DNA of 36,795 bases, taken from the NCBI GenBank assembly GCA_013139985.1, contig WSZT01000123.1, forward strand, positions 1 through 36,795. Direction: 5' to 3'. Every line of letters starts with the position of its first letter. Within the stretch, counting starts at the first letter, position 1. Source of the stretch: Candidatus Methanophagales archaeon. GTDB lineage: Archaea > Halobacteriota > Syntropharchaeia > Alkanophagales > Methanospirareceae. Under the pieces are notes generated by a model. It saw only the letters and a program-made list of their open reading frames with translations, was not told where the DNA came from and did no database searches. Below are positions 24,398 through 30,885 of this stretch, in pieces. The position numbers and the translations under genes were made by a program.

Positions 24398-24987
24398 TTT
24401 AAGATTACGCATATATCGGATGCGATAGAAGAAGCCAATTATACCCGAGTCGAAGTAGTCTCAGTGGGTTCAGATAGCTTTGATATGAGCTGGGTTAGTT
24501 CAACGGAATCACGCTGTTTCTTTGATTATGGTCTTTCCCCTTTTCTCCTTAATAGCACTCTTCCTGCACCCGACCTACCCACAAAATACCATTGGGTCAC
24601 GATAAAAGGGCTAAATGAGGAAAACGCATACCATTACCGGGTTAATAGCTCCTCTAATGGCATAAACAATTTCACTACCTTCCCATTAGACGCAGATAAT
24701 TACCCCTTTTCCTTTGCTGTTGCCACTGATATTCATTGGTCGAGTTCCAATAGTATTAGTAATTTTGGCCGGAGGTATCAGAAGGCGCATGGGTAACAGA
24801 ATGGGCGAAATTAGGGCAGGGGAACACCACATATAGCTTTAATTCCGTCGGATGGCACGTTATAGTAAATGATATATATCCACGCCTCGGCGACAATTAT
24901 GTGAGCTTTATTTTTGGCGCCTTGTCTGACAGGTCAATAAATGTCTCTTTCGCTCCCCGGAATCTTGGAGACGGTATCAAAGCTTAA
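24398..24987 (+). pseudogene. Metallophosphoesterase (purple acid phosphatase-like) remnant, frameshifted/internally deleted
   Basis: Frame 1: NYTRVEVVSVGSDSFDMSWVSSTES...HWVTIKGLNEENAYHYRVNSSS...YPFSFAVATDIHWSSSN (FN3-like then phosphoesterase start). Another frame: GNTTYSFNSVGWHVIVNDIYPRLGDNYVSF...GIKA*. Confidence 0.5.
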
Positions 24988-25465
24988 CACGTAACTGCTC
25001 AGGCGGACTCAAATCCATATCCATAGCACCTTTAAACAGAGTGGCGAAATGATTGAGTCGCTCTACTTTGCCGTTTTCACCTAAGTTTTCTCTTGCTCTC
25101 TCTACAATTTCAGCAAAAACATCCGGATTATATATGTCATTACCCATTTCTTCATGTAAGATTAAAAGAGCTTTTAAATGGACTTCCGGATACTCTCTAC
25201 GTCCGGAATAATATGCCGTATATCTAACTTTCAAGCAATTAGAGGAAGTGTCAATGTCAATCACCTCTAATTTTTCGTAACCTTGCTTTTGAAGTTGTTT
25301 ACTCAATTCCGCTTTATATCGCCCGCTAAAATCTTCATCGGTTTTTATCTTTTCTTCTATTTCCTCTATCAATTCGAATGAACAATAAGGGAGTTCACAT
25401 TCTACTTTTACCTCTTTGTAAACAGCCCTAAATATTATATTATCCAATATTTTATTAAGTCGCAT
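24977..25465 (-). CDS. hypothetical protein
   Basis: Coherent 163-178 aa ORF (start at 25465 or 25510), KILDNIIFRAVYKEVKVECELPYCSFELIEEIEEKIKTDED...; family not recognised. Confidence 0.6.
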   Translation of the reverse strand: MRLNKILDNIIFRAVYKEVKVECELPYCSFELIEEIEEKIKTDEDFSGRYKAELSKQLQKQGYEKLEVIDIDTSSNCLKVRYTAYYSGRREYPEVHLKALLILHEEMGNDIYNPDVFAEIVERARENLGENGKVERLNHFATLFKGAMDMDLSPPEQLRVKL

Positions 25466-25606
25466 ATGCACCTTCCTATCCCGCAGATTGCAGCTACATA
25501 CCGTTACCACTTACAGTCGCTATAAGTGATTGATACTATAAAAAGATTTCTGTTACTTTTAAATAAAACTTTTTGAAATGAAGGGTTTTTTAAAAAGAAA
25601 AGGTTT

Positions 25607-28262: not shown

Positions 28263-28892
28263 CTAAACCATTTTAAATCCGCAAAAATCCTTCACCGGGC
28301 ATTCTTCGCATCTCTTACGCCTGCAATATTTTATACTGAGTTTAACAAGTGCCGTTTCAACACGTGAAAGTTGTTCGCCTTCAAATTCATGCGGATTTAT
28401 GTCCAGATTCTCTGCTACGCTTTTAGCTTTGCTCGATACTTCCAGGCTTATGTGCCATACCCCGCGCAATTCACACAGGAATATCTGTGTCGTTACAGCA
28501 CCAATACCTTTAAATTCCTGCAACCTTCTCGCTAAATCTCTTGTATCTGAAGATTGATTATAGAGGTTCTCCAGAGACCCATATTTATCTTTTAGCGTTT
28601 GCGATATATCGAGCAGCTTTGTCGCTTTGGAAAAGTCGTATCGCACATATCCACCTTCATCCAGAATTTTTACCAGTTCGTCCCAGCCAGCGGCAATGAT
28701 CTTCTCCATGCTGTCAATTCCATACCGTTCAAATGCTTTGTACGTGTTAACTGCGATCTTCTCGCTTATCCTCGCACCGAACAGGATGGACGCTAAAAAC
28801 CATTTGAACCTGCCTGCTGGCTCCGTCAAGTCTATCCCGAGGTCTTCAGTATACAAAGAGAAGTTAGCGAGAAGCAGTTCGATTTTGTCCAT
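28263..28892 (-). CDS. endonuclease III-like HhH-GPD protein with putative 4Fe-4S loop
   Basis: FKGIGAVTTQIFLCELRGVW hairpin; C-terminal CRRKRCEECPVKDFC cluster. Confidence 0.75.
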   Translation of the reverse strand: MDKIELLLANFSLYTEDLGIDLTEPAGRFKWFLASILFGARISEKIAVNTYKAFERYGIDSMEKIIAAGWDELVKILDEGGYVRYDFSKATKLLDISQTLKDKYGSLENLYNQSSDTRDLARRLQEFKGIGAVTTQIFLCELRGVWHISLEVSSKAKSVAENLDINPHEFEGEQLSRVETALVKLSIKYCRRKRCEECPVKDFCGFKMV

Positions 28893-28909
28893 GATTATTC
28901 ACTTTCTCT

Positions 28910-30157
28910 TCAGTTTGTTGATTGTGTTTTATCCTTAGAGTCATTCCAAATATTTTCAAAAAACTTTATCGCCTCAGTCACAGTTTCCTGGTCTCTTGTC
29001 CATATTCCTGCGTTATATTGATCAATTAAGCCGTTCCGATCAAGGTCTGAGGAGGATATTAATACCTCGTGTTTATCTACTATCACCATCCTGGAATGAA
29101 TTTTCCAATTACTTTTGCAATTTCCTCCGCTATATTTGTTTAGCTGATCAATAACTTTTCTATTTACGCCTTTATCGTCCTTCGGTCGGGTTATCATTTT
29201 AAAGGTTAATTCCGGTTTCTCAGTTATTAATTTTATCAATTCATCATGCAGTATCTCAATGTACGGAGATAAGATTCTTATCTCAGATTTGGCTGAGTGA
29301 AGCATCCTCTTTATTATTTCCTGTACATCTTCAACATGGTATTCCTCAAAATATTTGGGTGATGTGTGAACGAAATAGGGCTTTATATATTTTAATTCCT
29401 GTTTCCTTAGCATATCTCCCCATTCTACATATTCTAAAGAGGCTTTTGGCCCCTCGCCAGCGCTTATTAATGCTAGACAAGCATCAGCACTCCAGTACCT
29501 ATCCTCTTTTTGAATCCTCTTTATCCACTCAACTGCTTTTATTACGCATTCATCATTTTGTCCAAAAACCCTTGAAAGAGCTTCAATCAATAGGGATGTT
29601 CCCTCAATTGGGTATGATGTTCCGTCTTTCCACTGATGAATTTCACCCCAATAGCCTTCTCCTTTTTGTTCACTTTTTAAGAATTCGCCTAAATCGTCTA
29701 TTATTTCTTTATACTTCAAATAATCGAGTTCACAAAGAGCAAGCGTGCCAATAGCGAGGGCTTTTAAATATTGAGAATGTAAAGGGGAAGAATGATGACT
29801 CTTAAACTCATCTAAATTATCTAAAAAATACCCCACAGCCAAATCAGTAGCCTCAGAATCCGGCTCTACTGATGTCAAAACTCTCAAGTTCAAAGTGTGC
29901 GGGGGGTAATCACCGGTAGGGATTTTTCCCTCACGCGTTTGTGGTTTTTTAATGAACGCCTCTAGAGCCTCTTTAAAACATTCATTTGAGCTCAAACCCA
30001 TCTTTGATAGATACCATAAAAGATATGGATCGTAAAACAAAGCCTCATCAAATCCCTCAGGGCCCTCTTTATCTAACCAAAAAGCCTCTCTTTTTGCAGT
30101 ATCAAAAAATTCTTTTAATAATGGTGAATTTACCTTACTCAATACGTAAAAATACAA
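28910..30157 (-). CDS. alpha/alpha-toroid (terpenoid cyclase/prenyltransferase-like) + phospholipase D-like fusion protein
   Basis: N-terminal helical repeats (GYWGEIHQWKDGTSYPIEGTSLLIEAL, YWSADACLALISAG); C-terminal PLD-like IHSRMVIVDKHEVLISSSDLDRNGLIDQYNAGIW. TTG start at 30157 or slightly downstream. Confidence 0.7.
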   Translation of the reverse strand: MYFYVLSKVNSPLLKEFFDTAKREAFWLDKEGPEGFDEALFYDPYLLWYLSKMGLSSNECFKEALEAFIKKPQTREGKIPTGDYPPHTLNLRVLTSVEPDSEATDLAVGYFLDNLDEFKSHHSSPLHSQYLKALAIGTLALCELDYLKYKEIIDDLGEFLKSEQKGEGYWGEIHQWKDGTSYPIEGTSLLIEALSRVFGQNDECVIKAVEWIKRIQKEDRYWSADACLALISAGEGPKASLEYVEWGDMLRKQELKYIKPYFVHTSPKYFEEYHVEDVQEIIKRMLHSAKSEIRILSPYIEILHDELIKLITEKPELTFKMITRPKDDKGVNRKVIDQLNKYSGGNCKSNWKIHSRMVIVDKHEVLISSSDLDRNGLIDQYNAGIWTRDQETVTEAIKFFENIWNDSKDKTQSTN

Positions 30158-30201
30158 TAGATTTCACATATAAAAAGTCAGATGAAAGAAAGGGGGCTAT
30201 T

Positions 30202-30885
30202 ATGACAGGATTGAAGGGCATTTTTGAGGATCGATTTGAAGATGTTCTTACAGCGGCGAAAGAAAGCGAGCTTCGGTGTTTACAAGGTAAGCGGTGGGAT
30301 GGGAATGCAGTACTGATTGTTGTAGATGCCGCATTGGATTCGGTTGGATTGCACTACTTCAATATAGTTGTGCCGCGGGTTAAGCGCTTTTACAACGATT
30401 ACGTGAAGACGGACGAGCTAAGCACTTTTAATGCTTTTTCAACGCTTTCCACAGAAGATGCACGGTTGAGAGGGATAATGAATAACAAGCGTGTTTGGCA
30501 GGTGGCAATAGGTATAAGTCGCGTTTTAAGAGGCATTAAAATACGTAAGGGTTTGGATACTGATTTTAATGCGGTGCGGTACTGGGCGGAGCATGCAAGG
30601 GTTAAGGACTGGGGAAATGATGAAATAGGAAAGATTAACGGTGTCGGACTGATAACATTTCAGTATCTGCGAATGCAAGCCGGTATAGATACAAGCGTGC
30701 CGGACAAAATAATAAAGCGGGTGCTGGAACGAGAGTTAGGAGTACATGCGAATAATGATTTACTGTTCATCGACGAGATGGCGCAGTTATCAAAAGAGAT
30801 AGGCTATTCGCAAATAATGATCTGCTGGGCGATTTGGTCCCGGGAATCGAATATAAAAAATCACTGGAAAAATTTCTTGTGTTAA
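30202..30885 (+). CDS. HhH-GPD glycosylase-fold-like protein
   Basis: INGVGLITFQYLRMQAGIDTSVPDKIIKRVL resembles HhH followed by the conserved Asp. ATG 30202 is preceded by aggggg; upstream ORF extension overlaps the divergent gene and is rejected. Confidence 0.6.
   Translation: MTGLKGIFEDRFEDVLTAAKESELRCLQGKRWDGNAVLIVVDAALDSVGLHYFNIVVPRVKRFYNDYVKTDELSTFNAFSTLSTEDARLRGIMNNKRVWQVAIGISRVLRGIKIRKGLDTDFNAVRYWAEHARVKDWGNDEIGKINGVGLITFQYLRMQAGIDTSVPDKIIKRVLERELGVHANNDLLFIDEMAQLSKEIGYSQIMICWAIWSRESNIKNHWKNFLC

Follow-up and report, generated by a model that had tools for sequence, protein, structure and literature searches.

Divergent HhH-GPD-type genes in ANME-1 archaea and a toroid-PLD gene that is being lost from between them

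In an ANME-1 (Methanophagales-type) genome, two genes for HhH-GPD-like proteins, HhH1 and HhH2, flank a gene that fuses an alpha/alpha-toroid-like region to a PLD-like domain (TPLD). The tight packing raises the question of whether the three encode one functional unit acting on damaged or modified DNA, or on lipids, as the original prediction proposed. The window, by which we mean the whole stretch of 36,795 nucleotides analysed, comes from contig C109 of this genome. Among named members of the genome collection, ANME-1 cluster archaeon AG-394-G06 and Methanophagales isolate CSMAG_2623 are closest to this genome. The features of the locus are as follows.

28263..28892, minus strand: HhH1, endonuclease III relative of 209 aa (profile match to Nth, column make-up)
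28281..28325, minus strand: HhH1 Fe-S cysteines C190, C195, C198 and C204 (C-x4-C-x2-C-x5-C)
28910..30157, minus strand: TPLD, toroid-PLD fusion of 415 aa, 5'-truncated here, TTG start uncertain
29408..30157, minus strand: TPLD alpha/alpha-toroid-like domain, residues 1-250 (SQHop_cyclase_C, PDB profile matches, Foldseek 8pak)
28928..29335, minus strand: TPLD PLD-like domain, residues 275-410 (PLDc_2; Foldseek TrmBL2, NucT, Zucchini)
29045..29098, minus strand: altered PLD motif of TPLD, HSRMVIVDKHEVLISSSD (HxRx4D...SSxD)
30157..30201, no strand: deletion joint (30157/30158), then HhH2 leader (blastn of gaps)
30202..30885, plus strand: HhH2, predicted HhH-GPD fold protein of 227 aa (AlphaFold2 and Foldseek)
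30703..30705, plus strand: HhH2 Asp168 codon, GPD-type Asp invariant in 35 members

The gene coordinates and both spacings of the original prediction stand: exactly 17 bp (28893-28909) separate the TPLD stop from the HhH1 start, and 44 bp (30158-30201) separate TPLD from the HhH2 ATG at 30202. A 299-aa open reading frame from TTG 29986 is an over-extension of HhH2, whose homologues begin at 30202. The flanking genes are of the housekeeping kind: a UbiA-type prenyltransferase, a CoaD-like adenylyltransferase (named by eye), an M24 peptidase, threonine synthase and beta-RFAP synthase; an NAD kinase gene lies farther away. The window also holds a 110-aa open reading frame (24464-24796, plus strand) that by eye resembles a shortened start of a metallophosphoesterase-type protein, possibly a gene remnant, and a 177-aa open reading frame (24977-25510, minus strand) with no Pfam or PADLOC match.

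HhH1 has no Pfam match above the cut-off, and PDB sequence searches with the single sequence or a profile return chance matches only. At the profile level, the predicted kinship with endonuclease III holds up: in hhalign the HhH1 family matches canonical ANME-1 Nth proteins over residues 26-206 with a probability of 97.2% (E 4e-11), and unrelated controls stay below 1%. HHH_5 is recognised in 16 of 18 members and EndIII_4Fe-2S in 11 of 18 (E<0.05). Among 37 members, D78, W31, W70, W146, R140-E141 and the GGYVRYD segment at 80-86 are near-invariant. The Fe-S cysteines are nearly invariant wherever the C-terminus is present, and are missing in one genome (G050). An ordinary Nth (GVGRKTAN...VDTHVHR) is encoded on contig C177 of the same genome.

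In the profile alignment the catalytic Lys of Nth falls on V133 of HhH1 and the catalytic Asp on S153, and by column make-up none of the 37 members restores these residues. Because both are missing, HhH1 would serve as a recognition protein or, like Sis-HhH-GPD, be a glycosylase of non-canonical type; most likely its HhH hairpin and Fe-S loop would bind a lesion or a stretch of distorted DNA. The comparison enzyme, SiRe_0278 of Saccharolobus islandicus, is placed in the HP0602/MagIII-type group. It is active as an alkylation glycosylase, relying on a different acidic residue, E134, and has a Ser in place of the catalytic Asp as well as four cysteines at its C-terminus (PMC11754123). Since that enzyme is active with a Ser there, loss of the Asp alone does not prove HhH1 inactive.

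HhH2 matches nothing in Pfam, NCBIfam or PADLOC, and PDB sequence searches, single or profile, again give chance matches only. Its AlphaFold2 model (pLDDT 90.6) predicts an HhH-GPD glycosylase fold, as had been expected of the divergent gene: Foldseek pairs it with the Ogg2, Mag2 and MagIII glycosylases and endonuclease III, and its 47 best PDB matches are HhH glycosylases, with weak E-values from 4e-3. P167-D168 is invariant across 35 members, and none of them has a Lys at the catalytic-Lys position. From its fold and residues, HhH2 would most likely act as a monofunctional glycosylase, flipping the damaged base and breaking the glycosidic bond with Asp168, without a lyase Lys.

Of 397 genomes sampled across the phylum, 77 encode HhH2. 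The two HhH genes are divergent in G000 and G004 and, with no TPLD, in G001, G003, G010, G011, G016, G017, G025 and G286; in G002 the pairing is inferred across a contig break, and in G029 each gene sits on a long contig of its own and the two are not adjacent. HhH1 and HhH2, which show no close kinship, represent separate branches of the HhH-GPD superfamily, arranged divergently in much of this ANME-1 family, and form a real but unlabelled pair of repair type with a predicted chemistry. We found no paper on HhH-GPD proteins in ANME-1, and viral scans with the HhH1, HhH2 and TPLD families recovered no relatives.

The content of the gap between the pair varies by genus, with TPLD in the genus of the window (g1) and another open reading frame in G286, and the gap looks like a site where accessory genes turn over. 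A radical SAM gene sits there in G017 (L058 7008-7706) and G010 (L057 2716-3405), and G025 has an open reading frame of the same size and place (L059 6172-6870), identified by size and position alone. In G017 and G025 the gap gene is almost fused to HhH2. In G003 (L055 5457-7578), PepQ is unusually divergent from the window copy (74.5% identity, dS 0.67), and a 269-aa open reading frame lies between PepQ and HhH1; the G003 locus has therefore been rearranged too.

Both halves of the predicted toroid-PLD fusion were recovered by Pfam and Foldseek, with moderate support for the toroid. Pfam gives SQHop_cyclase_C at 26.4 bits (cut-off 26.1) and PLDc_2 at 44.7 bits (cut-off 27), and a profile built from four sequences picks up squalene-hopene cyclase in the PDB (E 2e-9). 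The structure model is moderate (pLDDT 67); its N-terminal half matches squalene-hopene cyclase (8pak) and its C-terminal half TrmBL2, NucT and Zucchini. QW-like motifs occur in the toroid at residues 164-170 and 216-222. The DxDD motif is absent from TPLD of G000, G004, G024 and G277, which rules out a terpene cyclase; with no normal HKD site either, the suggested action on lipids finds no footing. Toroids are used in large secreted-looking ANME-1 proteins too, as in a 2181-aa protein of G021 (L063 3240-9785) with NosD, toroid, CARDB and PQQ-type repeat domains.

The PLD fold is present, but the catalytic motif HxKx4D...GS/S-x-N is not. All 13 readable homologues carry HxRx4D...S(S/T)xD instead of HxKx4D...SxN (the window, G004, G277, G024, G332, G177, a Haladaptatus plasmid copy, G507, G490, G397, G431, G564 and the C-terminal piece of G002), and a broken copy in G228 reads QPR at the motif. 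Other PLD-domain proteins of the phylum have HxK...SAN. In mammalian PLD2, the Lys-to-Arg change K758R is used to inactivate the enzyme (PMC10942622). The altered motif makes an ordinary PLD nuclease unlikely, and judging by sequence TPLD is probably not one. Because the site is conserved and not decayed, a binding role is the best inference: the PLD domain would probably bind a ligand, such as a phosphodiester, and not carry out the usual PLD hydrolysis, and the toroid would serve as a second binding module.

TPLD might then be a metabolite-sensing or chromatin-associated binding protein whose PLD domain works like the C-terminal domain of TrmB or TrmBL2. Among the fold matches TrmBL2 ranks first (E 5e-7) and TrmB appears too; a weak Regulator_TrmB sequence match exists and the motif has no catalytic Lys. 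However, TPLD has no DNA-binding HTH and no regulated operon nearby, and the scores of NucT and Zucchini are almost as high, which marks the TrmB matches as a general feature of the PLD fold. We regard this reading as improbable.

The comparison of congeneric genomes bears directly on whether TPLD belongs with its neighbours. Two of the five genomes of the genus (G001 and G003) have lost TPLD by deletions with different breakpoints, each leaving end-scars, and both keep HhH1 and HhH2; the three genes are not retained and lost as a set, which contradicts the proposed single unit. Their gaps of 150-151 bp open with the last TPLD codons (...ATTCCAAATATTTT). The G001 gap then jumps to the first codons of a window-type TPLD and the HhH2 leader, and that of G003 to the TPLD 5' leader as in G002 and G004. 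By eye, the joints share the short words TTTT and TTTTCAA. Reading these gaps as sites that were never occupied is wrong, as they contain both ends of TPLD (or its leader).

The window copy itself lacks about 300 bp of 5' sequence, comprising the leader and roughly 38-61 N-terminal residues. At the joint, about 305 bp are missing relative to G002 and 236 bp relative to G004 (blastn of the gaps passes from 773 to 1079 in G002 and from 1295 to 1532 in G004). The lost part, including the start codon and N-terminal residues, is present in G002, G004, G277 and G024, and the 5' joint is nearly the same in G001 as in the window. The 44 bp gap, taken originally for a shared promoter, is a deletion joint. 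In G228, from another genus, a TPLD copy interrupted by frame breaks and a TGA stands immediately upstream of HhH1; the gene thus adjoins HhH1 in two genera, intact in g1 and broken in G228, and its ancestry beside HhH1 is perhaps older than the genus. The scars of G001 and G003, the truncation in the window and the G228 copy therefore show that the ancestor of the genus had TPLD and that the gene is being lost.

TPLD with both domains occurs in 8 of 397 genomes of the phylum, one copy being broken, and in 7 of 300 genomes in the class of G332, presumably haloarchaea. In G024, G277, G332, G177 and others it has no HhH neighbour. A phage search with TPLD found none, and a plasmid search found one remote haloarchaeal copy: a full-length homologue on a Haladaptatus caseinilyticus plasmid (L210 7986-9320, NZ_CP111039.1), preceded directly by a small gene whose annotation is a helix-turn-helix protein.

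The history of the family is mosaic. Between the window and G004, dS is 0.09-0.21 in the flanking genes, 0.57 in the toroid and 1.83 in the PLD domain. The PLD domain of the window copy is 86% identical to that of G228, from another genus, and 42-49% identical to those of G004 and G002 of its own genus, which in turn are 81-90% identical to that of G277, of the genus of G228. The window toroid is 84% identical to that of G002. The statement on G002 takes its two contig-end pieces as one gene. These identities across genera show that TPLD has exchanged PLD domains between genera. The toroid dN/dS of about 0.25-0.3 indicates past purifying selection and past function; values for G228 were left out, since an internal stop shifted the codon alignment.

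Taken together, the three genes are probably mere neighbours and not one machine, because relatives have repeatedly lost TPLD and kept HhH1 and HhH2. The likely explanation, which we favour, is a lineage-conserved base-lesion pair, HhH1/HhH2, together with an independent accessory gene in decay; TPLD would be a member of a patchy archaeal family seated in the gap between the pair. Against this stand the position of TPLD beside HhH1 in two genera, a placement that random insertion does not favour, the past purifying selection on its toroid and the weak Foldseek E-values of HhH2. All genomes are fragmented metagenome-assembled or single-cell assemblies, so the TPLD deletions could be strain variants or misassemblies.

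Alternatively, TPLD alone could be an antiviral accessory, an altered PLD/toroid sensor or effector on mobile or island DNA, with PLD specificity cassettes and a gene discarded when unneeded. Its patchy distribution, allele exchange, repeated loss and plasmid copy fit such a role. In G507 (L218 8399-18000) a DUF1156 methylase gene (HmaB-like) follows PglZ-like and DUF499/HmaC-like genes (Hma type), and some 1.3 kb farther downstream on the same strand comes a toroid-PLD homologue, together possibly a defence island. This is the one locus of nine with defence genes close to TPLD, and we treat it as a lead only, a defence role for TPLD resting on this single case. PADLOC reports only PLD similarity for TPLD itself, through a weak DrmC profile similarity that any PLD domain gives. 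No tested neighbour in the window and four other TPLD loci matches PADLOC, and the tested neighbours of the window copy include no DISARM core genes, its flanks being housekeeping. We consider an antiviral TPLD unlikely.

More speculatively, and with a lower probability still, the toroid-PLD proteins may be an undescribed archaeal family in which the fixed HxR...SxD site is a non-hydrolysing sensor of foreign nucleic acid or of a modified ligand, the PLD domain being swapped among genera as a specificity cassette and the gene discarded when unneeded. Least probable is the three-gene repair or defence module, in which TPLD would cut or mark DNA and the HhH proteins find or remove modified bases: the tight spacing, the arrangement common to G000, G002 and G004 (and by ancestry to G001 and G003) and TPLD upstream of HhH1 in G228 speak for it, but the TPLD-HhH2 spacing is a deletion product, the scars and repeated losses left HhH1 and HhH2 in place, TPLD occurs elsewhere without HhH genes, and its motif is of the non-catalytic type in 13/13 homologues. 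Of the predicted functional unit, what survives is that TPLD adjoins HhH1 upstream in g1 and G228.

The reading of a conserved pair with a decaying neighbour separates a conserved but unlabelled HhH-GPD pair, one member of which is without both classical catalytic residues, from a transient accessory gene that resembles part of an operon. A further outcome is a PLD family whose active site is consistently altered, along with a clear case in which deletion scars in relatives overturn a functional guess based on operon structure.

Compared with known systems, HhH1 matches the Nth profile along residues 26-206, a span that takes in the Fe-S cysteines at the C-terminus, and differs in V133 and S153 at the catalytic positions, in its near-invariant DEGGYVRYD segment and in the cysteine spacing, C-x4-C-x2-C-x5-C against C-x6-C-x2-C-x5-C in the [4Fe-4S] loop of Nth. 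With Sis-HhH-GPD, compared by description only, it shares an archaeal HhH-GPD origin, a Ser in place of the Asp and a set of four cysteines at the C-terminus, whereas it has V133 near the position of E134 and another cysteine spacing. HhH2 shares its predicted fold (TM about 0.5-0.66) and the conserved Asp with Ogg2, MagIII and Mag2; it is only about 9-17% identical to them, belongs to no library family and, unlike Ogg2, has no Lys. The C-terminal half of TPLD has the fold of the TrmB/TrmBL2 C-terminal domain and of NucT and Zucchini. It lacks the HTH of the former, and carries HxR...SSxD where NucT and Zucchini, which are HKD enzymes, have HKD. Its N-terminal half matches the squalene-hopene cyclase toroid, including QW-like repeats, but is a single short toroid without DxDD, fused to a PLD domain.
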